Position numbers and translations under genes: made by a program
Notes under the pieces: generated by a model
What the model was told of the DNA's origin: nothing
Databases searched by the model: none
The model's input: the letters and a program-made list of their open reading frames with translations, nothing else
From: Leptotrichia sp. OH3620_COT-345
GTDB lineage: Bacteria > Fusobacteriota > Fusobacteriia > Fusobacteriales > Leptotrichiaceae
NCBI RefSeq assembly: GCF_003932895.1
Contig: NZ_RQYW01000011.1
Location: 1 to 64,000 of the forward strand
DNA length: 64,000 bases
Direction of reading: 5' to 3'
Part shown: piece after piece, positions 1 through 32,633 of the stretch
Layout of the letters: every line of letters starts with the position of its first letter
Numbering within the stretch: position 1 is the first letter of the stretch

Positions 1-33
1 TCCATTTACAATTTGTAATAAAAATTCTTTCAT
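1..33 (-). CDS. partial phage gene downstream of lysozyme
   Basis: An ATG at 31-33 on the minus strand follows a good ribosome binding site (AGGAGATGATTCAA upstream). The 11 visible codons read MKEFLLQIVNG before the window ends. Its place directly after the lysozyme gene suggests a lysis-cassette gene such as a holin, but too little is visible to assign a function. Confidence 0.5.
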   Translation of the reverse strand, partial: MKEFLLQIVNG

Positions 34-56
34 TTGAATCATCTCCTGTTTTTTAT

Positions 57-587
57 TTAAAAATTATTTTTTATAAATTTTTCTTTTCTATCAACCCTAT
101 TTAGCCAACCTTTAAGGAAAACTTTTTGTGTTGGTCTGCTTGATACAATGCTTCTGTAAAACTTTCTTTGTAAGTCGTGGTAAACTTGTAAAAACTTTTC
201 AGAATTTACGTTATTCAGGGCAAAAAGGGTGTTATTTCCTATTTTCCCGTCTGTAGCTAACACTTGTCTACCCTCTATTAAATTAATCGCCTGTTGTGCC
301 TTTTTTGCTCCCCAGTTGCCAGAATTTACAATCCAGTCGCATATAGATAAGGATATTTTGTCGTTTACCACTTCATTTAACCGATTTCCTAAAAAGTATT
401 TCTTTCTATAGATATCTTCAGCTATGGATATCGGCATATCTCTCATATGTCCCTTATAGCCGTATCTCCGAGCTTCAACTTCTATTATTCCATATTTTGT
501 TTTCCCCCCGCTGTCATATTTATCGTTACTGTATCCACCCTCTACTTTAAGTAGATACTCAAATATTTTTTTAAATCTTTGTTCCAT
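57..587 (-). CDS. phage lysozyme, GH108 family with peptidoglycan-binding C-terminus
   Basis: This 176-residue protein should cleave peptidoglycan during lysis. Residues 15-20 contain the EGGYS motif of glycoside hydrolase family 108, with E16 as the expected catalytic acid; the following DSGGKTKYGI stretch is also typical. The C-terminal half (DGKIGNNTLFALN) resembles the peptidoglycan-binding domain that follows GH108 in phage enzymes. There is no signal peptide, so a holin is needed for export. Its ATG overlaps the stop of the upstream gene by one base (TAATG), indicating coupled translation at the end of the tail operon. Confidence 0.9.
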   Translation of the reverse strand: MEQRFKKIFEYLLKVEGGYSNDKYDSGGKTKYGIIEVEARRYGYKGHMRDMPISIAEDIYRKKYFLGNRLNEVVNDKISLSICDWIVNSGNWGAKKAQQAINLIEGRQVLATDGKIGNNTLFALNNVNSEKFLQVYHDLQRKFYRSIVSSRPTQKVFLKGWLNRVDRKEKFIKNNF

Positions 588-1156
588 TACTCTTTCACCT
601 CCTTTTCCAATGTTTTTATTTCTTTACTTAATTTAGTTATTTCCTTTTTCAACAAATCCATTTCTGCATTTATTTCTATAATTCTTTCTTCTGTTTCAGA
701 AGTGTCAAACCCGAGCTCTTCAAATTCTGTTTTTTCCTTTTGTTTTTCTTCCAACTCATGTTTATATCTTAAATATTCTTGTTGTTTTTTATAACGTTCA
801 TCTTTTAAATATTGTAATTTTAAAACTTTATCTTCTTCCCATATAGTATTTTTCCATACGCTGTATGGATTAGGTTTTGGCACCGTTATAATGATTTTGC
901 TACTCTCATCTAAGTATTGCCCTTCTTTTAATGTTATTTTTCCTGCTTTTGCTTTTTCATATTCTGTCATTTCTCTCAATTCTCCATTTTTATCAATAAT
1001 TGGATTAATTAATAAAGTTTCAGAATATGCCATAGTTTCACTATTCCAATCGGGATAAAATTTTTCGGGACTTTCCTTAAATTCATTTACTGTTGTAATA
1101 ACGGGTTGTGCTATTAACTCTAAATCATCCTTTTTATAAATATACATTACATTCAT
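587..1156 (-). CDS. tail-fibre-associated coiled-coil protein
   Basis: The 189-residue protein has an N-terminal half of mixed character and a long charged C-terminal coiled coil (about residues 115-189, repeated E/K heptads). It sits between the tail fibre and the lysozyme, the usual place of a fibre chaperone or fibre-tip protein. The start at 1156 follows AGGAGG at suitable spacing. I do not recognise a specific family; the role is inferred from position. Confidence 0.7.
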   Translation of the reverse strand: MNVMYIYKKDDLELIAQPVITTVNEFKESPEKFYPDWNSETMAYSETLLINPIIDKNGELREMTEYEKAKAGKITLKEGQYLDESSKIIITVPKPNPYSVWKNTIWEEDKVLKLQYLKDERYKKQQEYLRYKHELEEKQKEKTEFEELGFDTSETEERIIEINAEMDLLKKEITKLSKEIKTLEKEVKE

Positions 1157-1177
1157 ATTTTTACCTCCTAATTTTTA

Positions 1178-2224
1178 TTAAATTCTTGCTACGGTTACTC
1201 CTTGTCCTGTCATTTGCAAGTTTCCGACATGACCATTTCTTATACTAGGATAAATACTTAAACTTCTTTCTGTGGCATTAAAGTAACATTCTGCAACTTC
1301 TCCGCCTGATCCGCCCGTTCCATTTGCGGCAGAAAAATTTAAAGTAACTGCATTTTTGCAAAACCAATCTGGGATATTTACAAATTTAGTTTCGTATTCA
1401 TTTTTTACGCCAAGATTGGAAAAACTAATTATTCTTAAACTCCCAACAGAAATAAGATTAAAAATTTGTTGTGTTAATCCATTTGCACTATTTAACCTTA
1501 CTTCCTCTTGCCTAAAACTATATAGGTTTTCTAATTTATCCGAAATTGGTTTGTTAGAAATAGGTTTAAATTTAGCAACATCTACATAAGTTAAATTATT
1601 ATTACTCACGCATTCAAAATAATGTTTTGTACCGGTATCATAATAGAATTTTCCTACTGTTTTTGTTCCTATATCTTGAATATTTCCTCCAAATTCCAGT
1701 CCAATTATTTCTGCCAGTCTTTTTCCCTCTAAAACTGTATCTGATTCTGTTCCATATTCAGTAATATTTATTATTACAAATTGATTTCCGTTGTATGTTA
1801 ATTCATATGACTTGTTAGGTTTAAAGTCTCCAGCCTCTATCTGCTTTAAAGTTCCGTTGTATTCTTTTAGCAACGTGTAATCAACATTATTTAGTCTTAA
1901 TTTTGTTGTTGTATTTGTGTTTTTAGTATCAACATTTATTCTTAATTTTAAGTCATTATTTACTCCAAATTCTGTTAACCCCTCCAAATTGCAGACATAA
2001 TAATCTATATTCAGATTTGTTGTTTTATTAGCCTGTAACGTATGCACGTTTCCAAGCTGCAATCCGTTATATATTTCTTCAGTCTCAGGAGTTCCGTTTT
2101 CTCTTATAGTTCCAAAAGCTGGAATTATATTTTTAATCTTAGTATCTCCTCTATTTGTATCTTCCACTTTATAATGAGATGGAAATTCAACTTGTTGTGC
2201 TTTAAATTTAGTTAATTTAGCCAT
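1178..2224 (-). CDS. tail fibre / receptor-binding protein
   Basis: The 348-residue protein is rich in Asn, Thr and Gly and in predicted beta structure. It lies directly after the baseplate genes, where contractile phages encode their fibre. Its C-terminal part (around GTGGSGGEVAECYF) resembles a receptor-binding head domain. No enzymatic motif is visible. The assignment rests mainly on position and composition. Confidence 0.75.
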   Translation of the reverse strand: MAKLTKFKAQQVEFPSHYKVEDTNRGDTKIKNIIPAFGTIRENGTPETEEIYNGLQLGNVHTLQANKTTNLNIDYYVCNLEGLTEFGVNNDLKLRINVDTKNTNTTTKLRLNNVDYTLLKEYNGTLKQIEAGDFKPNKSYELTYNGNQFVIINITEYGTESDTVLEGKRLAEIIGLEFGGNIQDIGTKTVGKFYYDTGTKHYFECVSNNNLTYVDVAKFKPISNKPISDKLENLYSFRQEEVRLNSANGLTQQIFNLISVGSLRIISFSNLGVKNEYETKFVNIPDWFCKNAVTLNFSAANGTGGSGGEVAECYFNATERSLSIYPSIRNGHVGNLQMTGQGVTVARI

Positions 2225-2233
2225 ATTACCTCC

Positions 2234-2881
2234 TTATTTTAAATTAATCATATTATCTTTTCCTAAATCAAATTGACCTAGCTTATTTCTCCCAAATCTT
2301 CCAAATGCTGAATAAGAAAAATTACAAACAGGATTTCTCTTAACTTCATTTTTAATTACATTTTGACCTAATGTTTTTCTTCCAAATCTCATTCCAACTA
2401 TGTAATTATCCAAACATTTTAAAGTATTTACTTTAACTCCACCGCCAACAATACTATTTAAGTCAAGTTCATCAATCAAAGAATAATCATAATCTCTGTC
2501 GCTTACAAATTTGACATCGTAAAGTGCATGTTCGTTATTAGTATTCAACTCTATGACTGGAGTTAATCCTGTGAACATTTCTCCGATATTGCTTATTGTT
2601 TCTAAATTCGGAATTAACTTATATTTCCTCATAGCCAGTTTGATTCTGTTTCTGTATCTGTCATCAGTTTGTCCGTTTCTGCTGACGTTAAATTTAATGC
2701 CTAAGTCGTCCAAAAACTCTCCTGTCGCATAATCTATTAAATGCTGTTTCTCCAGCAAATTATAAATGTTATCAATTTCATCAAAAAGTTTTGCTACAGC
2801 TTTATAAAATGCCTGTACATTTTCGTTTTTTTTAAGCCACCAGGGGCATTTAGACAGTAAATAATCATAATTATTCTGCAT
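2234..2881 (-). CDS. baseplate wedge protein, gpI/YmfQ-like
   Basis: The 215-residue protein has an N-terminal segment (residues 1-90) typical of P2 gpI / Mu gp48 / YmfQ proteins: an early WWL motif, then DYATGEFLDDLG and RNRIKLAMRKY. It follows the gpJ-like gene and overlaps it by 11 bases, the conserved order of baseplate wedge genes. The C-terminus has two near-copies of an RFGRxxLGQ motif (about residues 165-173 and 197-206) that may attach the fibre. Confidence 0.82.
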   Translation of the reverse strand: MQNNYDYLLSKCPWWLKKNENVQAFYKAVAKLFDEIDNIYNLLEKQHLIDYATGEFLDDLGIKFNVSRNGQTDDRYRNRIKLAMRKYKLIPNLETISNIGEMFTGLTPVIELNTNNEHALYDVKFVSDRDYDYSLIDELDLNSIVGGGVKVNTLKCLDNYIVGMRFGRKTLGQNVIKNEVKRNPVCNFSYSAFGRFGRNKLGQFDLGKDNMINLK

Positions 2882-3998
2882 ACTTCGCCACCTCGTTAAA
2901 ACCTAATTTCAATACTTTGACAAAATTGTTTCCTGATGTTTCTTTCAGCTTAAAAGAAACATCTATATTTAAAAGCTTTTCTGCAGAGTATACTGTTCTT
3001 ATAAATTCACTTTCACATTTATAACTTGTAATATATTCTCCTACTTTCACAGATTTAATATATTCCTTAACAATATCTCTTAAATTTTCTTCAAAAATAT
3101 TTACTCCATCAGCTTTTTGGAACTCGATTTTTACCTGTACTTCTCTTTTTTTCGGTCTATAAAATCTCACTTCTCTGTCTATTCCCTGATTATCCTTGAC
3201 AGTTACAATAGTATCTCCATTCATTTGAATAGCCTGATCCTTTTTTTTCCATATTGCTTTTGCTATATCCTCATTTCTTCCACCGTCTACTATTAATACA
3301 ATTGACTTCGGCTCTAGCCCTTTAGTGTCAACTGACATTGTCTTATTTTCGTCAGCATAGACAGATTTAACACCCTCTTGTTTTAGAATTTCAGCCCTTA
3401 TTCCATCCAAATTCCATTCACTTTCGTTTCTGCTTAGAAACCAACGCTCTATATAAGCGTTATCTGTTTCCTGTTCCTGTCCCCCTGCTGCAACTTCATT
3501 TTGTTTAAAGTCGTATACGCCATTAACAACTTTAACGAGCTTTATAATGCTACCCATTTCCTTGTTTCCTTGTTCTCCTGCAATATTACATTCAAATTTA
3601 AAAGTTGTCTTATTATTCAGTGTTCCATTTTCCGAAAGTGTATATCTTGTTCCGTCGTTTGCTTCAACGATTACATCTCCTATTTCAAGAGAAACATTAA
3701 GTCCTCCAATTAATTCAATATTTACCGTTGCCTTGCTTTCCTGTTTCCTTTTGAAAAAAAACGGACTATTTGAAAGATGTTCATCTATTTCTATTCCCTC
3801 ACAGTTCAGCAAATTCATTTTATCTGCCTGTATCTGCTGACGTTCCATCTTAACTCTCATAAGTCTAGCAACAGGGAACATAAGCATAAACCAGGCACTC
3901 CGTTTATCGTTAGAATGGTCATCTTTCAGTAATGATTTAAGTTCATTATTCAATATATTCATATTGTCCTGTACTGTGTTAACTGTTATTCTCGCCAA
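2871..3998 (-). CDS. baseplate J-like protein
   Basis: The 375-residue protein matches the Baseplate_J family (P2 gpJ, Mu gp47). It has an N-terminal helical region, a central beta domain (NVSLEIGDVIVEANDGTRYT) and the characteristic WNLDGIRAEILKQEGVKSV segment. It builds the outer baseplate wedge with the gp25-like and gpI-like neighbours; the start overlaps the gp25-like gene by 13 bases, so the three are probably translationally coupled. Confidence 0.9.
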   Translation of the reverse strand: MARITVNTVQDNMNILNNELKSLLKDDHSNDKRSAWFMLMFPVARLMRVKMERQQIQADKMNLLNCEGIEIDEHLSNSPFFFKRKQESKATVNIELIGGLNVSLEIGDVIVEANDGTRYTLSENGTLNNKTTFKFECNIAGEQGNKEMGSIIKLVKVVNGVYDFKQNEVAAGGQEQETDNAYIERWFLSRNESEWNLDGIRAEILKQEGVKSVYADENKTMSVDTKGLEPKSIVLIVDGGRNEDIAKAIWKKKDQAIQMNGDTIVTVKDNQGIDREVRFYRPKKREVQVKIEFQKADGVNIFEENLRDIVKEYIKSVKVGEYITSYKCESEFIRTVYSAEKLLNIDVSFKLKETSGNNFVKVLKLGFNEVAKYAE

Positions 3999-4363
3999 CC
4001 TATTCCAACTCCTTCCATTAGCATTTTTTCATCATCTGCAAATACAAGCCCTATTTTCAATTTCAATTTTCTTCTTTCAAACTCATAGACTTCAACAAAG
4101 CAGCTTTTCAAATAATCCTTAAAATTATTGTAGATTTTATTTCTTATATGTTCTATCACTTCATTTTCATTTCCATGTGTTCCAAAGAGCTTTTCAAAGT
4201 TCAAGCCATATTCTGTGTCATAGTCTAGCTCTCCCTCTCTTACATGCAACATCAATACTATTTGCTGAATAACTTCAAAATACTTTTCTCTGACTTGAAA
4301 AAACTGTACATCTCCATTTTCAACATATATTTCTCCTGTTGCATTGTTTAGTTTTATATCCAT
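3986..4363 (-). CDS. gp25-like baseplate wedge protein
   Basis: The 125-residue protein matches the gp25/gpW-like (DUF2634-type) baseplate family. It has a beta-rich start, then VIQQIVLMLHVREGELDYD and a conserved YGLNFEKLFG segment. These small proteins nucleate sheath assembly on the baseplate. It lies between the spike and gpJ-like genes, as in other contractile phages. Confidence 0.86.
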   Translation of the reverse strand: MDIKLNNATGEIYVENGDVQFFQVREKYFEVIQQIVLMLHVREGELDYDTEYGLNFEKLFGTHGNENEVIEHIRNKIYNNFKDYLKSCFVEVYEFERRKLKLKIGLVFADDEKMLMEGVGIGWRE

Positions 4364-4374
4364 AAATCACACTC

Positions 4375-4905
4375 CTACGGATGTATATAAGGAGTTCCGC
4401 CTTTGCTCACTCCACTATCAGTATCAATGCTTTCTGCTTTAATCGGTCCGCTTTCAATACTTCCAACTTTTAATTTTCCTGTTATTTCAGTATTTCCGTT
4501 TACAGTTAAATCGCCATTTAAAATAACATCTCCGTTTATCTCTATATTTTCAGGAATATCTACAGCAGTCAGATCAGTAGAAATCAAAATTGGCAAAGCA
4601 ATAGCGTTTGTCAGATTATGTCTTTTGTTAGTATTAACAATGCTAGTTTCTTTAGTAATGTATCCGCTTATATCTCGACTACATATAAGCAGCGGAACAA
4701 TATCTCCATCCTTAAAATTTAGCTTGATATTTATGTTTCTGTTTCCAATCTGACACATCGGAACATACAAAATAGGGGGCAAATTAACTTCCTTGTATTC
4801 AGCTACAGGCTCGACATCTACAAAGCCATTTGAATATACCTTTGTTATTTTAGCTATAATGGAGGTATCTATTCTTCCAATCATGGCTTTTAAATATTCT
4901 TCCAT
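4375..4905 (-). CDS. tail spike / puncturing protein (gpV-like)
   Basis: The 176-residue protein has an N-terminal OB-fold-like part (residues 15-100, AKITKVYSNGFVDVEPV) as in Gp138/P2 gpV spikes. A short triple-strand beta-helix repeat follows (INGDVILNGDLTVNGNTEI), and it ends in GGTPYIHP. The terminal His may bind metal at the tip, as in other spikes. Its start overlaps the stop of the hub fragment upstream by one base. Confidence 0.87.
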   Translation of the reverse strand: MEEYLKAMIGRIDTSIIAKITKVYSNGFVDVEPVAEYKEVNLPPILYVPMCQIGNRNINIKLNFKDGDIVPLLICSRDISGYITKETSIVNTNKRHNLTNAIALPILISTDLTAVDIPENIEINGDVILNGDLTVNGNTEITGKLKVGSIESGPIKAESIDTDSGVSKGGTPYIHP

Positions 4906-5285
4906 TATTTCTTTTTCCCCTTTCTTTTCGTCTGAACAGTTTTTCCTTTTTTGTTTTCAGACTTTTCGATTTGCTTTATTTCAGCATTGTTTTTCTTAAT
5001 ATCAGAAGAGTTATTAATTACTCTTACTTTTAAAGTCATTACAAAATCACTTATATCAGATATTTCAACAATCTGACATATTGTAGATATTTCATTGCTT
5101 ATAAGTTCAATTAGATCACCTTTTTTTAACTGATAAATTAGTAAGCATTTGACTTCATAATCATATTTAAGCTCTTCTTTTTTCTCTGTTTTTTTATCCT
5201 TTTTAGTTTCCTTAGCTTTTTTAGAATTCTTGTTTTTTTCTTCTTTTTTATTATTTTTTGCTTTTCCCTTTTCCTTTTTTGCCAT
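4905..5285 (-). CDS. C-terminal domain of the baseplate hub, separate frame
   Basis: After about 40 Lys-rich residues this reading frame encodes YDYEVKCLLIYQLKKGDLIE and further strands that look like the final domain of gpD/XkdQ-type tail hubs. The preceding frame (5251-6042) ends in a similar Lys-rich tail without that domain. The likely start is the ATG at 5283-5285 behind a GGGGG stretch, although the frame is open up to 5369. Either the hub is made as two proteins, or a frameshift in the A-rich overlap (5251-5369) joins them. Confidence 0.72.
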   Translation of the reverse strand: MAKKEKGKAKNNKKEEKNKNSKKAKETKKDKKTEKKEELKYDYEVKCLLIYQLKKGDLIELISNEISTICQIVEISDISDFVMTLKVRVINNSSDIKKNNAEIKQIEKSENKKGKTVQTKRKGKKK

Positions 5286-25776: not shown

Positions 25777-26519
25777 CCGAATATCTCCTTTTTGATTTCT
25801 TCTTTAATCGTTTTACGTCTACTTTCCCAGTCAAATTTTAAGCTTCTACAGTTTTCGGTCACCCTATCAAATACATCATCACTTCCATTAATACTTAAAT
25901 ACTCTTTCATCTGTTCCATATCTAAAGTCGTTGATATTATCAAACATTTTTCTGCTTCATAAAGCTTGTTAAAAATATAAAACAGTTTCTCTTTTCCCCA
26001 ACTTTCGCTCAGATATTCCTTTCCTAAATCATCTAAAATTATGAGATCCGCATTCAGTAAATCATTAATAATTCCATGTTCCGTTGTATTTTTGTCCTGA
26101 AAAGAACTTTTTATCTTGTTATTTATTTCCATCAAGCTTGTACGATAAACCCTGTATCTGATTGATAATTCATTAAAAATACACAGACTGTAAAATGTTT
26201 TTCCTGTTCCTCTTTTTCCATAGAGATATAATCCTATCCCATGTTTTAAAGCTTTTTCAAAATTTTCACAGTATTTTTCAAGCTTAGATTTTATTTCCAG
26301 TTCCTTTTCGCTCTTCACAACCGATTTTTCAAATGTACATTCTGAAATTTTTCTGGGTAATGTCGAAATATTTTTATAATAATTTATCAACTTTTTATTT
26401 CTTTCATTATCGAATATCCCAAAACTCACAGTTTCTACCATATTAGAAGTCTGCTTCGATATTGTAGTCGGGTTTTCTTGTTTGTTTTTTACCATTTCCG
26501 ACATTGTTACTATTCCCAT
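25773..26519 (-). CDS. DnaC-like helicase loader ATPase
   Basis: The 248-residue AAA+ protein has Walker A (YGKRGTGKTF, about residues 100-109) and Walker B (LIILDDLGKE, about 160-169), with sensor-like STTLDMEQ later. It is in the DnaC/IstB-like group that loads replicative helicase at the phage origin. The start at 26519 follows GAGGAGG and overlaps the initiator gene by 77 bases. Confidence 0.9.
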   Translation of the reverse strand: MGIVTMSEMVKNKQENPTTISKQTSNMVETVSFGIFDNERNKKLINYYKNISTLPRKISECTFEKSVVKSEKELEIKSKLEKYCENFEKALKHGIGLYLYGKRGTGKTFYSLCIFNELSIRYRVYRTSLMEINNKIKSSFQDKNTTEHGIINDLLNADLIILDDLGKEYLSESWGKEKLFYIFNKLYEAEKCLIISTTLDMEQMKEYLSINGSDDVFDRVTENCRSLKFDWESRRKTIKEEIKKEIFG

Positions 26520-27225
26520 TCTTGCCTCCTCGTTTTTTATTTTCTATCCATTCAGGCTCTGCCGTCTTCCAGTTATATAAGTCCATGTATTCCAAAGCTT
26601 CTTTTAAAGCAACTTCATCACTAAAATTTTTTAACAACAATTTAATAGGACCCGTTGTTTTTACACTATCTTTTATTTTCCTCCTATATCGGACGAATTC
26701 AAACAGAAGATTTTTATATTCTTCAGTTTTATCTTGTGAATTTATAAAATCCTCAATTTCTTTTTTGGTATTTTTTTCTTTAGTATATTCAATATTTAGT
26801 ATTATTCTTTCTTTAGTAGTATTCTTTCTTTTATATACATCGGGATTTTCCCGATTTGGGTTTTCCCGATTTGGGTTTTCCCGATTTGGGTTTTCCCGAT
26901 TTGGGTTTTGACTTTCTTTTTTAGAAAAATCAATTACATCATTTTCTTCTATATCTTCAAAAACAAAATAATCTACCGTTCCGTCAGAATGCCGTATTCT
27001 GCTTATATATCCCGCTTCTATTAACTCTTTTATCCCCGAATACACAGAATCTAACCCGTCTTTTGAATTTTTTGCTATCTCTTTAGGATTATAATTCCAA
27101 TCTTCAGGCTTTGATAACATATAAAGCATTATTCCTTTAGCTTTTAAAGATATGTTATCATCATTTATTAATTTGTTATGTATGGTTGTAAAATTTGTTT
27201 TTTTATTTACTGTTTTTTTAGCCAC
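26443..27225 (-). CDS. replication initiator with N-terminal winged helix and iteron-coded repeat
   Basis: About 260 residues. The N-terminus (KTNFTTIHNKLINDDNISLK, AKGIMLYMLSKPEDWNYNP, SVYSGIKELIEAGYI) is the winged-helix domain of phage replisome organisers/O-like initiators. A repeat of NPNRE (about residues 107-126) is encoded by four exact 15-bp units. The C-terminal half (LLKNFSDEVALKEALEYMDLYNW) would contact the loader. The GTG at 27225 is preferred because AAGAGG lies upstream. Confidence 0.87.
   Translation of the reverse strand: MAKKTVNKKTNFTTIHNKLINDDNISLKAKGIMLYMLSKPEDWNYNPKEIAKNSKDGLDSVYSGIKELIEAGYISRIRHSDGTVDYFVFEDIEENDVIDFSKKESQNPNRENPNRENPNRENPNRENPDVYKRKNTTKERIILNIEYTKEKNTKKEIEDFINSQDKTEEYKNLLFEFVRYRRKIKDSVKTTGPIKLLLKNFSDEVALKEALEYMDLYNWKTAEPEWIENKKRGGKNGNSNNVGNGKKQTRKPDYNIEADF
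26846..26905. repeat. four exact 15-bp iterons inside the initiator gene
   Basis: The unit TTTTCCCGATTTGGG is repeated four times without change (26846-26860, 26861-26875, 26876-26890, 26891-26905) and followed by a partial unit. Each unit contains a CCC-GATTT-GGG near-dyad. Lambdoid phages carry their origin as iterons inside the O gene, so this is a good candidate for the prophage replication origin. Confidence 0.75.
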
Positions 27226-27237
27226 TTTTTTCACCTC

Positions 27238-27871: not shown

Positions 27872-28300
27872 TTAATCTATACCTAATTCTTGTTTTAATG
27901 CTTCCTGAAGCACATTTGAAAAATTTATATTACTTCTTTTAGCCATTTCATTTAACCAGCTCGGAATTGAAACATTCTTTCTTACTGTCTGGCTTTTGCA
28001 TTCATTAACATATCTTTTCATATTTAAGTTTACTAAAGAAGTAAAACTCTCATTTTCCCTATAATATTCCTTTTCTTCTTCTTCCAAATTTATTTTTATA
28101 TCTTCTATACTACTCGCTTTCGGCAATTCATTTCCATTCAAAAAATCATCATATAAATAAGTTCCAATATAATCCTGTGCCATTTCTATAGCTTCTTCAA
28201 GTGTTTCTCCTTGTGTAGCACCATTATTTAAATCGGGGAATATTACTACATAACCTCCTTCAACCGCTTTATGAAAAATTGCAGGATAAACTATAACCAT
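27872..28300 (-). CDS. hicB: HicB-family antitoxin
   Basis: The 142-residue antitoxin has the partly degraded RNase-H-like HicB fold (MVIVYPAIFHKAVEGGYVVI, then FPDLNNGATQGETLEEAIEMA) and a C-terminal ribbon-helix-helix/CopG-like DNA-binding part (RKNVSIPSWLNEMAKRSNIN). It binds HicA and probably represses its own promoter, which contains a matching inverted repeat. Confidence 0.93.
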   Translation of the reverse strand: MVIVYPAIFHKAVEGGYVVIFPDLNNGATQGETLEEAIEMAQDYIGTYLYDDFLNGNELPKASSIEDIKINLEEEEKEYYRENESFTSLVNLNMKRYVNECKSQTVRKNVSIPSWLNEMAKRSNINFSNVLQEALKQELGID

Positions 28301-28336: not shown

Positions 28337-28531
28337 CTATTTTTTTAGTCCTGCCTGTTTTAAAATAACTTGTTCCATACCCTTTTTCAATTCCTTTGAG
28401 TGATACGGAACTATCGTTATTTTACCAGTACTATGATTAATAAATTTCCTATGAGAACCTTTGCCACCTTGTATTTCAACAAAGCCATTCTTTTTTAGAA
28501 ATTTAATCATTTCCTTTGACGTCATCGGCAT
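28337..28531 (-). CDS. hicA: HicA-family toxin (mRNA interferase)
   Basis: The 64-residue protein has the double-stranded-RNA-binding-like HicA fold: TSKEMIKFLKKNGFVEIQGG, then KGSHRKFINH with the expected catalytic His. It is encoded first in the operon, before hicB, the usual order for this type. Its role is translation inhibition if HicB is lost, stabilising the prophage. Confidence 0.93.
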   Translation of the reverse strand: MPMTSKEMIKFLKKNGFVEIQGGKGSHRKFINHSTGKITIVPYHSKELKKGMEQVILKQAGLKK

Positions 28532-28602: not shown

Positions 28603-28628
28603 AAAAAGAAAAGAGCCATTAGGCTCTT
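28603..28628 (-). terminator. terminator of the ABC-3C operon
   Basis: AAGAGCC-TAAT-GGCTCTT followed by a T-rich run on the minus strand; it overlaps the ATPase stop codon. Confidence 0.85.
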
Positions 28629-30402
28629 AAAATTGAAATCCAAACAACGTACCTTTTCCATTATCTTCATCTGTTAATTTGGCAATTATATTTTCTTTAT
28701 CAAGAAGTTTTTTTACTTCATTGTCATTAATTTCGTCTTCAATAGCAGTAGTAATATATTGTAAATCATATTCTACACAAAGTTCTTTTATCAATTCTAT
28801 GAGAAGCTTTTTCTTCCGATTATCTCCGCCTTCTAACATACCATCTTGAAATAAAAATTTGTGATAATTAAATCGAGAATAATAACTAGCTATTGACAAG
28901 CAAAAACAAGCCATTAGAATACCCTTATATGTTCCGCCATCATCTTCAGATGTTCTGTTTTCAAGTTTATCTTCTAAATATAAATCAAATTCGGGGTTAT
29001 TTTCTTTGTTCAAATTTATTATTATTCTTCCATTTCTTTCTGGAAAAATTTTTTTTGTTATCTTTTGAAATATTTTTTTTATATCATTATAAGTTTCATT
29101 ATCTCTTGATACTTCTATTTTTAATTTACTAACAATAGTATTGTGTTTATTTTCTATTTCTGTTTTTTCAGTAATGTTTTCTAGTTTTTTTTCTAGTTCT
29201 TCTAATTCAATTTTTAATTTTTCCAATTTCTCTTTTTGAATTTCTAATTCAATTATTTCTTTGGCTTTCTTTTTATAAAACTCATTTTCATTTAAAATTT
29301 TTATATTTTTTTCTCTCTGTTTATTTAAAAATTCCAACTTTTGATTTACTTCATTGGATTCATTAGATAATTTTGATAATTTATTTTTTAAGGCTTTTTC
29401 TCTCTCTACAAAAATTATTTTATTAAATTCTATCAATTCTTTATAATTCTTTTTCAATTGTTCAGGAAAGTATAAATTAACTTCCTTAAATACATTTTCT
29501 AATTGATCCAAATCAATAGCGTTTATTTCTTCTTCCAATGCTGTGCTTATTTTTTCTATATCAATAGAAAGATTATATCTTTTTTGGTTATATTTAGAAA
29601 TCTCACTGGAAATATTTTTAACAGTTTCTTCTGTTACATTTTTGTCAAAAGAATAATCATTATGAACATCTATATTTTTTTCAAGTTCTGAGATATTGTC
29701 TTCAAATTCAAGAATTTCAGTTCTCTTTTTATCTATCATTGTGGTAATATTTTTGGGGCTTTCCTTTTTTAGAACCTTTAACTTTTCCTCTAACTCTTTT
29801 TTCTCTTCAAAAATATGATTATCAAAGCCAAATAAATACAATAATTTATTTTTCCATTCAAAGTCTGAACCTTTATATGGATTTTTCATTTTTTTAGAAA
29901 AAGAATCTTTATCTTTAAGAAAAATCATCCTTAAATATGTTCTATAATCATATTTTTTTAAGACATTAAAATCTAAATAAACATTATTCAATAATTTTTT
30001 GGCTTTTTCATAAGGTAAGTCTACATGTTCCCACACAATTTTTTCTTCGTCTAGTTCTTTTAATTTTGATTCTAATAAAGCAAAAGATATCTTCGAGTTT
30101 TTTTCCACACTACGTTTAATTAAAAGATATTTTCCACTATCAAGTAATAGTTCCAAATAAAAAATATGTTCTTTAAATAAATTAAAATGTCTTTTAAAAA
30201 TACTTTCTTCATTAATCCGCTTTAATAGTAAAAAATCAATTAAATTTACTAATGATGTTTTTCCTAAATTATGGCTGTCTTTTTTTTTGTTATTTTCATC
30301 ATTTGTTTCTCTTGTTTTTTTTCCAACTATTATATTAAAATGTTCATTGAATTCTATTTCTTTAAATTCTTTTTTATTAGAAAAAATTTTAACTAATTTC
30401 AT
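28627..30402 (-). CDS. DUF2326 ATPase of an ABC-three-component system
   Basis: The 591-residue SMC-like ATPase has the extended DUF2326 P-loop: VGKKTRETND..., ending in DSHNLGKTSLVNLIDFLLLK, with about 20 residues inserted before NLGKTS. Long coiled coils fill residues 200-460. The C-terminal ATPase part has KGILMACFCLSIASYYSRF and FLFQDGMLEGGDNRK. These features define the ABC-3C ATPase. It overlaps the middle-component gene by 14 bases. It likely senses phage or DNA structures and licenses the effector. Confidence 0.88.
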   Translation of the reverse strand: MKLVKIFSNKKEFKEIEFNEHFNIIVGKKTRETNDENNKKKDSHNLGKTSLVNLIDFLLLKRINEESIFKRHFNLFKEHIFYLELLLDSGKYLLIKRSVEKNSKISFALLESKLKELDEEKIVWEHVDLPYEKAKKLLNNVYLDFNVLKKYDYRTYLRMIFLKDKDSFSKKMKNPYKGSDFEWKNKLLYLFGFDNHIFEEKKELEEKLKVLKKESPKNITTMIDKKRTEILEFEDNISELEKNIDVHNDYSFDKNVTEETVKNISSEISKYNQKRYNLSIDIEKISTALEEEINAIDLDQLENVFKEVNLYFPEQLKKNYKELIEFNKIIFVEREKALKNKLSKLSNESNEVNQKLEFLNKQREKNIKILNENEFYKKKAKEIIELEIQKEKLEKLKIELEELEKKLENITEKTEIENKHNTIVSKLKIEVSRDNETYNDIKKIFQKITKKIFPERNGRIIINLNKENNPEFDLYLEDKLENRTSEDDGGTYKGILMACFCLSIASYYSRFNYHKFLFQDGMLEGGDNRKKKLLIELIKELCVEYDLQYITTAIEDEINDNEVKKLLDKENIIAKLTDEDNGKGTLFGFQF

Positions 30403-30640
30403 TTTTTAATCTCACCTCATCTTTTGAAAGAGAGTATTCTATTTTATCTAGCAAAAATAAAAAATTAAGAGCAGGAGGGAAATTATATTCTGTATCTTCT
30501 TTATATTTCTCGTAAAAAAAATTATACAAATCTGAATATTTTATTCTTTTATTTTTGTTTTTTAAAATTTGTTTTATAATTTCTCCTGATACAAATAACA
30601 CAGATGTTTTTAAATCCATAAATTTATCTGGTCTTATCAT
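30389..30640 (-). CDS. ABC-3C middle component, MC6-like
   Basis: The 83-residue protein begins MIRPDKFMDLKTSVLFVSG and contains YNFPPALNFLFLLDKIEYSL, the pattern of ABC-three-component middle component 6, a small winged-helix-like adaptor. It lies between effector and ATPase genes and couples them physically. Confidence 0.85.
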   Translation of the reverse strand: MIRPDKFMDLKTSVLFVSGEIIKQILKNKNKRIKYSDLYNFFYEKYKEDTEYNFPPALNFLFLLDKIEYSLSKDEVRLKNEIS

Positions 30641-30658
30641 AATATCCTCCTTTCTTTT

Positions 30659-31207
30659 TTATTTTATTCCATAATCACATTCTTGATACATATAATGTAA
30701 AAATATTATAATATATTTTTCAACTTCCATACTATCATTTTTTCCTATTCTTTGCAATAGTTCACCCTTAATTTTACTCATATGTTCTATTATATTATAA
30801 TTTTTATCTTTTTGTTTTTTCGAAAAAAAATCTCTTGTTAAGTCCTTAGCTACAATTTCATAATTTTTTTTATACAGCAAATTTCTCTTATTTTTAAAAA
30901 ATGCGTCAATCTCTGAGAAATATTCTATATCACCACCCAATATTACTTGATCATAATACTCTGGACTCATATTATTTTTTTTATGTTTTTCTGCTTGATT
31001 TCTTTTGAAATTTTGATACTTATCTTTATCTTCTTCAATAATTTCGTCCTTATTTTCTAAAAATAACTCTATTGTATTTTTAAATCTTTCTTCATTAAAT
31101 TCAATTGTATTATACGGTTGATAATAATTATTGGTTTGATTTACTGTAATATCACTATTTTTATTCTTTGAAATATTTATTTCTTGCTGAATTTTATCTT
31201 TTTTCAT
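30659..31207 (-). CDS. ABC-3C component with C-terminal domain
   Basis: The 182-residue protein ends in IIIFLHYMYQECDYGIK, which matches the YMYxxCxxG end of ABC-3C C-terminal domains. It lacks a fused nuclease or membrane domain. Instead its first 40 residues hold a short Asn/Gln motif (SDITVNQTNNYYQ). The neighbouring 54-residue gene has related motifs. The lack of an effector domain suggests that the effector is separate. Confidence 0.8.
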   Translation of the reverse strand: MKKDKIQQEINISKNKNSDITVNQTNNYYQPYNTIEFNEERFKNTIELFLENKDEIIEEDKDKYQNFKRNQAEKHKKNNMSPEYYDQVILGGDIEYFSEIDAFFKNKRNLLYKKNYEIVAKDLTRDFFSKKQKDKNYNIIEHMSKIKGELLQRIGKNDSMEVEKYIIIFLHYMYQECDYGIK

Positions 31208-31358
31208 TATTTTTTCCCTTTTCGTTATTTATTTGATTGATATTTACAATGCTATCTTTATTTTTTTTTACTTTATTTATTTGAGTAATATTGTTTTCAT
31301 TATTTATTTCTGCTCCGCCAAAAATTCCTTTTAAAAAATTCCAAATATTTTCCAACAT
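31194..31358 (-). CDS. 54-residue amphipathic protein, first gene of the ABC-3C operon
   Basis: ATG at 31358, behind AAAAGGAG, encodes an N-terminal amphipathic helix (MLENIWNFLKGIFGG) followed by two Asn/Gln motifs (NNITQINK and SIVNINQINN). It overlaps the next gene by 14 bases. The helix resembles membrane-active peptides; the motifs resemble the N-terminal motif of the downstream ABC-3C protein. It may be the missing effector. No family recognised. Confidence 0.6.
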   Translation of the reverse strand: MLENIWNFLKGIFGGAEINNENNITQINKVKKNKDSIVNINQINNEKGKNNEKR

Positions 31359-31378
31359 ACTATACAACTCCTTTTATT

Positions 31379-31526: not shown

Positions 31527-32618
31527 CTACTTCTCTTCAATATATTTATTCAATATCTCAACCAGTTTTTCTTCAAATTTGTATAATTCTTTTAAAGAAT
31601 CCATCTGGGTTCTTTCTTCTACTACAGCACCACCATCACGTCTTTCATCTGTTGGAAAACTTATGACTATTTTTTCAACCCCTGTAAATATTCTACAAAT
31701 CCATTTTCTTGTGTTATTTTGAAATAATATACTGAAATAACTTCTTGTATCTTTAAAAGTTATATTATCTAAGTCTGTATATTTTCCTAAAATTGATTTT
31801 ATTATAAAATAACTTTCCATTTCTGTTTCAGTTGTAACTATTTTATCTTCAGGATTTTCTTCAATTTCTTCTGTCATTTCTTCTACTACTTCAATATTTT
31901 CCTTAGTGCTATTTTCTAATACTCTTTCAAACTTTCTTCTCGCATAATCATTAATAAATGTTTTAAAAGTATCTTTGAAAATAACTTTAAAACCTTCTAT
32001 TTTACTTTGCATTAACCTTCCATCATAAACTTCTTTTGCAATTATTTTTATAAAATCGTCATCGGGATTTTCAAGTTGTCTACTCAAATAATTCTTCATT
32101 CCATTTGAATATTTAAGTATTTCAGCATTATTTAAAATTTGTTCCGGGTTATAATTACTTTTAGAAAATTTTCTTATTTCGGGTATTTTGTCTTCTGTCA
32201 AATCTAAAAAATTTACTGATAAAAATGGTTTATTATCCATTATATTTTTTTCTTCTAAATCCGTAAAAAATTTATATATTACTCCATTTGTTAGTATTCC
32301 TATTTTAGCCTTTGTAACATGGAAATATCTTTTAAGCTGAATATCATGATTGCTTAAATCGTCTGCCATAGGTTTCGTTTCAATTAAAATTTCAATTTCT
32401 CCATTTACTTTTAAAGCATAGTCTACTTTTTCACCTTTTTTCTCTCCTATATCTGCTACAAATTCAGCTATAACATCATCAGGATTAAACACATTATATC
32501 CCAATAAATTTAAAAATGGTGCTATCAAGTACATTTTCGTCTGCTCTTCCTTAAAATCTTCGTTCTGATACTTTCTAATAACCTTTACATGCTCTTCAAT
32601 TTTGTCCTTAAATTCCAT
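31527..32618 (-). CDS. HsdR N-terminal-like restriction nuclease
   Basis: The 363-residue protein contains a type I HsdR-like N-terminal nuclease fold (PD-(D/E)XK): EEQTKMYLIAPFLNLLGYN, EKVDYALKVNGEIEILIETK (D..ExK) and IGILTNGVIYKFFTDLEEK. It has no helicase domain. Such stand-alone proteins often lie next to phage repressors. The start at 32618 follows GGAG. It probably acts in superinfection exclusion or host defence. Confidence 0.78.
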   Translation of the reverse strand: MEFKDKIEEHVKVIRKYQNEDFKEEQTKMYLIAPFLNLLGYNVFNPDDVIAEFVADIGEKKGEKVDYALKVNGEIEILIETKPMADDLSNHDIQLKRYFHVTKAKIGILTNGVIYKFFTDLEEKNIMDNKPFLSVNFLDLTEDKIPEIRKFSKSNYNPEQILNNAEILKYSNGMKNYLSRQLENPDDDFIKIIAKEVYDGRLMQSKIEGFKVIFKDTFKTFINDYARRKFERVLENSTKENIEVVEEMTEEIEENPEDKIVTTETEMESYFIIKSILGKYTDLDNITFKDTRSYFSILFQNNTRKWICRIFTGVEKIVISFPTDERRDGGAVVEERTQMDSLKELYKFEEKLVEILNKYIEEK

Positions 32619-32633
32619 AAGCAATCACTCCTT

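Follow-up and report, generated by a model that had tools for sequence, protein, structure and literature searches.

A nuclease-less ABC-three-component operon in a Leptotrichia prophage and a motif-paired small protein as its candidate membrane effector

Where is the effector of an ABC-three-component (ABC-3C) operon whose C-terminal domain (CTD) protein carries no effector domain? The question is raised by a prophage of Leptotrichia sp. OH3620_COT-345, in which a tightly packed four-gene operon is located on the minus strand at positions 31358-28627 of a stretch of 64,000 nt (contig NZ_RQYW01000011.1, positions 1 to 64,000; this whole stretch is called the window). The genes encode, in this order, a small protein of 54 amino acids (aa), a CTD12 protein, a middle component (MC8) and a DUF2326 ATPase. 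According to PMC10586767, the described effectors of ABC-3C/Lamassu systems are N-terminal domains of the CTD protein (nucleases, a peptidase, TIR, SIR2 and others), and the presumed sensor LmuB, together with LmuC, activates the effector joined to the CTD protein, which is thought to result in abortive infection. Neither Pfam nor the predicted model gave such a domain ahead of CTD12 in the window protein. This protein lacks the effector domain, which leaves the small protein as the only effector candidate. The preferred answer, to which we assign a probability of about 0.6, is that a shared amyloid-signalling-like motif links the ABC-3C sensor to a membrane effector encoded separately.

Small proteins paired with nuclease-less CTD proteins

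Loci anchored on the ATPase or the CTD protein were collected from viral contigs and genomes (for the latter, one N-terminal pattern yielded 144 relatives, of which the best 80 were kept), which gives a comparative set and not a census; some entries are near copies of each other, e.g. in Gilliamella. The 108 loci comprise 85 with a nuclease motif, 9 with other N-termini, 11 short ones and 3 which could not be called, where 'nuclease' denotes a QAKH-like regular-expression match in a CTD protein ending where expected. Set aside were L025, L104 and L108 (no CTD open reading frame (ORF) called), L027 (omitted from the count of 108), L014 and L015 (copies of the window and of L005) and L028, one of the 11 short loci, in which the nuclease is cut by the contig start. 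Three further nuclease-less loci (L157, L177 and L188) came by other routes than this set.

In all 14 intact nuclease-less loci found (the window, L018, L026, L034, L035, L038, L054, L056, L060, L102, L106, L157, L177 and L188), the CTD gene is directly preceded by a small ORF, whose tail motif matches the N-terminus of the CTD protein. Gene order, replacement of the nuclease by the small ORF and the pairing within each locus can be read directly from the loci. The small ORFs comprise about 54 to 89 codons, and the shared motif is short, rich in Asn/Gln/Gly and located at the C-terminal tail. No such paired ORF was found in the 85 nuclease-bearing or the 9 other-effector loci of the 108-locus set. 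For motif scoring, only ORFs of at least 30 codons ending -60 to +40 nt from the CTD start were taken; 26 of the 85 nuclease loci contain one, with a best pairwise score of 32, compared to 38-106 in the 10 intact short loci. These scores do not depend on a profile. A profile of the small proteins gave nothing comparable upstream of the nuclease loci either (best match E 0.0066, a phage protein in L138), and it matches the CTD12 N-terminus of L018 (E 2.5e-4); applied to the 108 loci the profile test is circular, as the sequences in the profile come from among them. The arrangement of a nuclease-less CTD protein with a motif-paired small ORF is regarded as secure.

The motif flavours vary between loci and match within a locus. 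In L026, the small protein carries NNNIINNSGNIAGGNQVINN, which is identical in its CTD protein (20/20 residues). Further pairs, small protein before CTD protein, are GRDNKTAGNDI and GRDNKSAGRDI (L054), NSPIFSNTGDV and NSPIFANQGDV (L060), GDESPIQKN and GDYSPIQNN (L177), and KNNSVSIINN and NNNSVAAVNN (L188). Partners were permuted between loci, leaving out L035 and L157 as near copies of L034 and L056, respectively. For 12 loci, none of 100,000 permutations reached the observed total, and the own partner ranked first in 9 loci, second in 2 and third in 1. With 9 non-redundant loci, 1 of 100,000 permutations was as good and the own CTD partner scored highest in 9/9; an earlier run with 10 loci had given 1 of 20,000. 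As judged from these comparisons, the motif match across loci clearly exceeds what composition would give.

In the window, KNKDSIVNINQINN of the small protein aligns with KNKNSDITVNQTNN of its own CTD12 protein, and two motif copies in the Asn/Gln-rich tail of the former face one in the latter. An earlier note on this DNA, made from its letters alone, had claimed this resemblance. It is modest in the window, where the pair alone would not convince, and becomes convincing only through the relatives. The note had also named conservation of the small ORF as a check: apart from an identical protein, searches gave no close homologue of the 54-aa protein, yet a small ORF of this kind stands in every intact nuclease-less and in no nuclease-bearing locus counted above, and in this sense the prediction held.

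Purifying selection on the small ORFs is indicated in the three close pairs available, with ratios of non-synonymous to synonymous substitution rates (dN/dS) of 0.31 for L102/L106, 0.30 for L056/L157 and, with few changes, about 0.05 for L034/L035; the window ORF has no close relative. A transmembrane-like segment is present in the small protein of each of the 13 relatives, where the best 19-residue Kyte-Doolittle mean ranges over 1.64-3.26, and that of L188 has two hydrophobic segments. The window protein is the outlier, with an amphipathic N-terminal helix, MLENIWNFLKGIFGG (Eisenberg moment 0.49 over residues 2-15), in place of this segment. Thus, the amphipathic helix proposed previously holds for the window but is not the rule among its relatives. 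The small protein is probably a membrane effector, as far as its predicted helix and the segments of the relatives indicate. Scans with Pfam, PADLOC and NCBIfam matched nothing in the 54-aa ORF at E ≤ 1, and a Pfam scan of 11 small proteins gave scattered weak matches and no convincing one, whereby no dedicated BELL/BASS profile was run.

A programmed frameshift joining both ORFs was considered as well. Overlaps of 1 to 17 nt, two different reading-frame relations, and short gaps instead of overlaps in L177 and L188 argue against it.

The window operon and its protein families

The window operon is an ABC-3C (Lamassu-superfamily) system in a prophage. A middle component, an ABC ATPase and a CTD-bearing protein were all found using Pfam (Table 1). 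The same three components in the same order form the CTD12-MC8-DUF2326 branch of ABC-3C, and the window ATPase matches the PADLOC candidate PDC-M68B (E 2e-41) as well as LmuB (E 7e-10). The difference from ABC-3C is that the fused domain is gone and that the CTD protein instead has a motif in common with a mini-protein of membrane type, encoded by its own gene. Of the system described in the earlier note, the ATPase and the CTD protein (CTD12) stand, whereas its MC6-like adaptor is MC8: only MC8 clears its Pfam cut-off, and MC7 and MC6 score below theirs. Other parts of that description were borne out, including the positions of the ORFs. Pfam detected no nuclease or membrane domain fused to the window CTD12 protein, and nothing precedes CTD12 except a tail that is largely disordered in the model. 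The 54-codon gene opening the operon appears real, with a Shine-Dalgarno-like sequence, a 14-nt overlap with the CTD12 ORF and a position that recurs in relatives; phage-type genes flank the operon on both sides. No NLR domain match was obtained in the window operon with Pfam, which found the ABC-3C families instead. Promoter-like sites in the operon region are no commoner than in shuffled sequences (26 vs. 25.3).

Table 1. Features of the operon in window coordinates
Feature	Position	Strand	Evidence
Shine-Dalgarno-like AAAAGGAG	31368..31375	-	9 nt upstream of small-ORF ATG; read from sequence
54-aa small protein ORF, proposed membrane effector	31194..31358	-	amphipathic N-terminal helix, Asn/Gln-rich tail; position and tail motif recur in relatives
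Small-protein motif region, residues 19-45 (NNENNITQINK... and ...KNKDSIVNINQINN)	31224..31304	-	local alignment with CTD12 N-terminus, score 53, shuffle p 0.02
Nuclease-less CTD12 protein, 182 aa	30659..31207	-	Pfam CTD12 28.1 bits, cut-off 25
CTD12 N-terminal motif, residues 14-27 (KNKNSDITVNQTNN)	31127..31168	-	local alignment
ABC-3C middle component 8 (MC8), 83 aa	30389..30640	-	Pfam MC8 39.4 bits, cut-off 25
DUF2326 SMC/Rad50-like ABC ATPase, 591 aa, presumed sensor component	28627..30402	-	Pfam DUF2326 66.9 bits, cut-off 28.7
Terminator-like hairpin at operon end	28611..28628	-	1 found; shuffles mean 0.2, sd 0.5

The AlphaFold (AF2) model of the window CTD12 protein has a mean predicted local distance difference test score (pLDDT) of 83.8 and is all-helical for residues 39-182; within the largely disordered tail before residue 39, residues 6-14 and 19-31 fall below a pLDDT of 50. 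Its best structural match covers residues 337-473 of 9a6c_B (Z 8.9, 17% identity; next row 4.4), a 481-residue chain from the YydD-YydB model of the YydB/YydD system of Bacillus subtilis; the likeness is limited to the C-terminal part of YydB. It is treated as a lead, because for helical models even Z 8.9 can reflect a common arrangement. The C-terminal region of LmuA (9nxx_D) came third with a Z of 4.4 for 112 aligned residues, scoring like unrelated rows, and this match, too, may be a common helical arrangement. Foldseek gave no match of the model at E ≤ 0.001, with LmuA at rank 47. A sequence search of solved structures gave nothing relevant for the window ATPase, the window CTD12 protein or one nuclease-type protein.

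Proposed signalling and competing explanations

In the proposed mechanism, the DUF2326 ATPase and MC8 would act as the sensor and CTD12 as the relay, with its N-terminal Asn/Gln/Gly motif sitting where most relatives have the nuclease. The small protein would be the effector, combining a membrane-binding helix with the same motif. Once an invader is sensed, CTD12 would be released or clustered, and its motifs would form a template for stacking of the small-protein motifs, the most likely product being a beta assembly like those of amyloid signalling. The helices, thus clustered, would then damage the inner membrane and the infected cell would die; toxicity of the small protein and a defence function are postulated along with these steps.

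Bacterial NLR-BELL amyloid pairs (BASS) are described in PMC7889193 and PMC8086366 as adjacent or overlapping genes with a motif at the effector C-terminus and at the sensor-side N-terminus, and with several motif families. The loci studied here are alike in gene layout, in the protein ends carrying the motif and in having several motif families, which supports the analogy with amyloid-signalling gene pairs drawn in the earlier note. They differ in the sensor, which is an SMC-like ABC-3C complex instead of an NLR, and in the effector, which has about 54-89 aa and one or two hydrophobic segments instead of a BELL helical bundle. BASS3-type peptides, shown to aggregate (PMC8086366), resemble the present motifs in make-up. 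For fungal HET-S/NWD2 and HELLP/PNT1 and for the RHIM necrosome, PMC7885112 describes a sensor-side motif templating the motif of a membrane-damaging effector, and HET-S has two repeats (r1, r2) where its cooperating NLR has one (r0; PMC8086366). The window pair, with two copies in the small protein and one in CTD12, has the same ratio, whereas no sequence kinship with HET-S, HELLP or RHIM was shown. The system is treated as a variant within ABC-3C, because the three components are present and the fused effector is absent; it is not assigned to the NLR-BELL class since an NLR is absent, though it would work like an amyloid signalosome. No description of a nuclease-less CTD protein with a motif-paired small protein was found in the open-licence papers searched, which agrees with the claim of a new effector arrangement in the earlier note.

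Several observations weigh against this mechanism. The window motif pair differs only modestly from shuffled CTD12 N-termini (p = 0.020 and 0.021 in two runs), and composition alone makes N/Q-rich tails look alike. With a best 19-residue Kyte-Doolittle mean of 0.36, the window small protein is without a transmembrane segment. Its AF2 monomer, of low confidence (mean pLDDT 59), shows helices at residues 2-14 and 21-50, i.e. helix and no beta structure in the tail. The RHIM core [IVL]Q[IVLC]G is absent from the small proteins and the first 45 residues of the CTD proteins in all 14 pairs. The motif copies of L026 are identical over 62 bases, so that part of the pairing reflects duplication; those of L034 have diverged. 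From these DNA comparisons, duplication or gene conversion may refresh the motif match in some loci. An N-terminal AGRDVN is present in a phage protein upstream of nuclease-type CTD12 loci (L138 and L136, about 1925-2287; GDNNTVAGRDVN in L138), hence the motif is not exclusive to paired loci. Apart from the match in L018, the profile hits CTD12 N-termini only weakly (E 0.0097 and 0.08), and other frames give hits with a similar E. Finally, some of the relatives are divergent: the CTD12 cut-off is passed by 10 of the 13 nuclease-less CTD proteins scanned (window included, L157 outside the scan), while L026 stays below it with 18.9 bits and CTD12 does not match L034 or L035 at all; these three were therefore placed by gene order and their own ATPase.

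Whether the motifs stack in an amyloid-type manner or simply dock is judged about evenly balanced. A docking account without amyloid, in which tail and N-terminal motif pair one-to-one and CTD12 holds a membrane toxin like an antitoxin, freeing it upon activation, would fit the small overlapping upstream gene with its membrane-like helix and the one or two motif copies per protein, and locus-specific matching suits the specificity of a heterodimer equally well. However, the Asn/Gln/Gly-rich make-up and the near-identity of both sides, complete in L026, favour homotypic stacking over a lock-and-key fit, and we consider the docking account unlikely. The small protein could also be an anchor tethering the sensor complex to the membrane, with the toxic activity residing elsewhere; mostly single hydrophobic segments with little else (two in L188) are what an anchor would look like. 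Such a role is improbable, given that the other proteins of the window operon are CTD12, MC8 and the ATPase and that Pfam recognised no other effector domain in them. That the small ORF is spurious or a leader ORF, with a merely compositional motif likeness, is suggested by the AT-rich DNA, the window p-value of only about 0.02 and the missing family match. We give this very little credence, as position and length of the ORF recur, purifying selection is seen in relatives (measured outside the window ORF) motif matching is locus-specific and no such ORF was found in nuclease-bearing loci.

A sensor coupled to a separate membrane effector by a shared motif would extend a large defence superfamily, in which the described effectors are fused to the CTD protein as domains, by a layout with a two-protein effector, and it would explain nuclease-less CTD12 operons which seem effectorless. 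It also draws attention to small ORFs which gene callers may miss, and it raises the prospect that amyloid-like signalling, which in bacteria has been described with NLRs, may also serve a quite different class of sensor. The varied motifs, matched within each locus, make signal specificity open to direct experiment. More tentatively, and at somewhat less than even odds, amyloid-type templating could be a general plug-in of bacterial immunity beyond NLRs, in which a prion-like motif carries the signal of an SMC/Rad50-like DNA sensor to a mini-protein of about 60 residues at the membrane, each locus having its own, possibly mutually insulated flavour.

Relatives, distribution and prophage surroundings

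An ATPase-MC8-CTD12 trio in the same order occurs on plasmids of Agrobacterium, Citrobacter and Arthrobacter, with a CTD12 protein of about 320 aa. The N-terminal domain of these proteins is read as a putative Mrr-like nuclease on the basis of GRDGGRD and QAKH motifs; the label rests on the motifs because, of the 6 nuclease-type proteins scanned, 4 gave a Pfam Mrr_cat match below the cut-off and 2 gave none. The 9 loci with other N-termini contain three SMEK domains (Pfam-confirmed in the two scanned), five HNH domains (Pfam-confirmed in the two scanned) and one nuclease frame which starts late (L051, tallied here). The SMEK N-termini are those of L082 and L105 (Pfam) and L113 (by eye), the HNH N-termini those of L094 and L132 (Pfam) and L133-L135 (by eye). 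In L187, a protein annotated as SMEK lies ahead of the DUF2326 gene. L188 is located on the Alteromonas macleodii plasmid pKD01, where the annotation reads 'hypothetical protein' beside 'ABC-three component system protein'. At positions 1-5192 of this locus, the paired system adjoins tnsD and tnsE of a Tn7-like element, as if it were cargo.

In a quick tree of 67 ATPases, which cannot separate gain from loss, the short form needs 4 state changes, of which well-supported branches require at least 2, compared to an average of 10.5 for shuffled labels; the effector type has thus apparently switched more than once. The placing of the window is unsure because of its long branch (1.68) near nuclease-bearing loci. 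The ATPase relative with 86% identity (L005) ends at a contig edge upstream of MC8, thus its small-ORF region is missing. The system is rare in genomes close to that of the window. The window ATPase was found in 1 of 60 genomes near the window, namely its own, and a CTD12 alignment was obtained in 2 of 100 genomes (the window's own and a weak partial match). PF20279 scored above the cut-off in 1 of 291 genomes. In 398 Bacillota-centred genomes, the small-protein profile gave 4 matches at E ≤ 0.001, comprising the centre, G682 (L157) and two in longer frames elsewhere. Among viral contigs, the sole match of the 54-aa protein and the window CTD12 protein was a contig identical to the window, and phage records searched with the window ATPase, the 54-aa protein, the window CTD12 protein, the L034 CTD protein and the L102 ATPase gave no match.

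The operon is flanked on one side by genes for an Erf-like annealing protein and an anti-repressor and on the other by genes for a DnaC-like loader and a RusA-like resolvase. The next genes after the operon's end encode a HicA toxin (28337-28531) and a HicB-like antitoxin (27872-28300), both assigned by Pfam. Upstream of the operon, behind a small helix-turn-helix gene, an HSDR_N-type endonuclease-like protein is encoded at 31527-32624 (phrog_4225, E 3e-115), which possibly belongs to the same accessory region. The ORF at 26443-27234 is predicted to encode a protein whose middle part contains consecutive NPNRE repeats.

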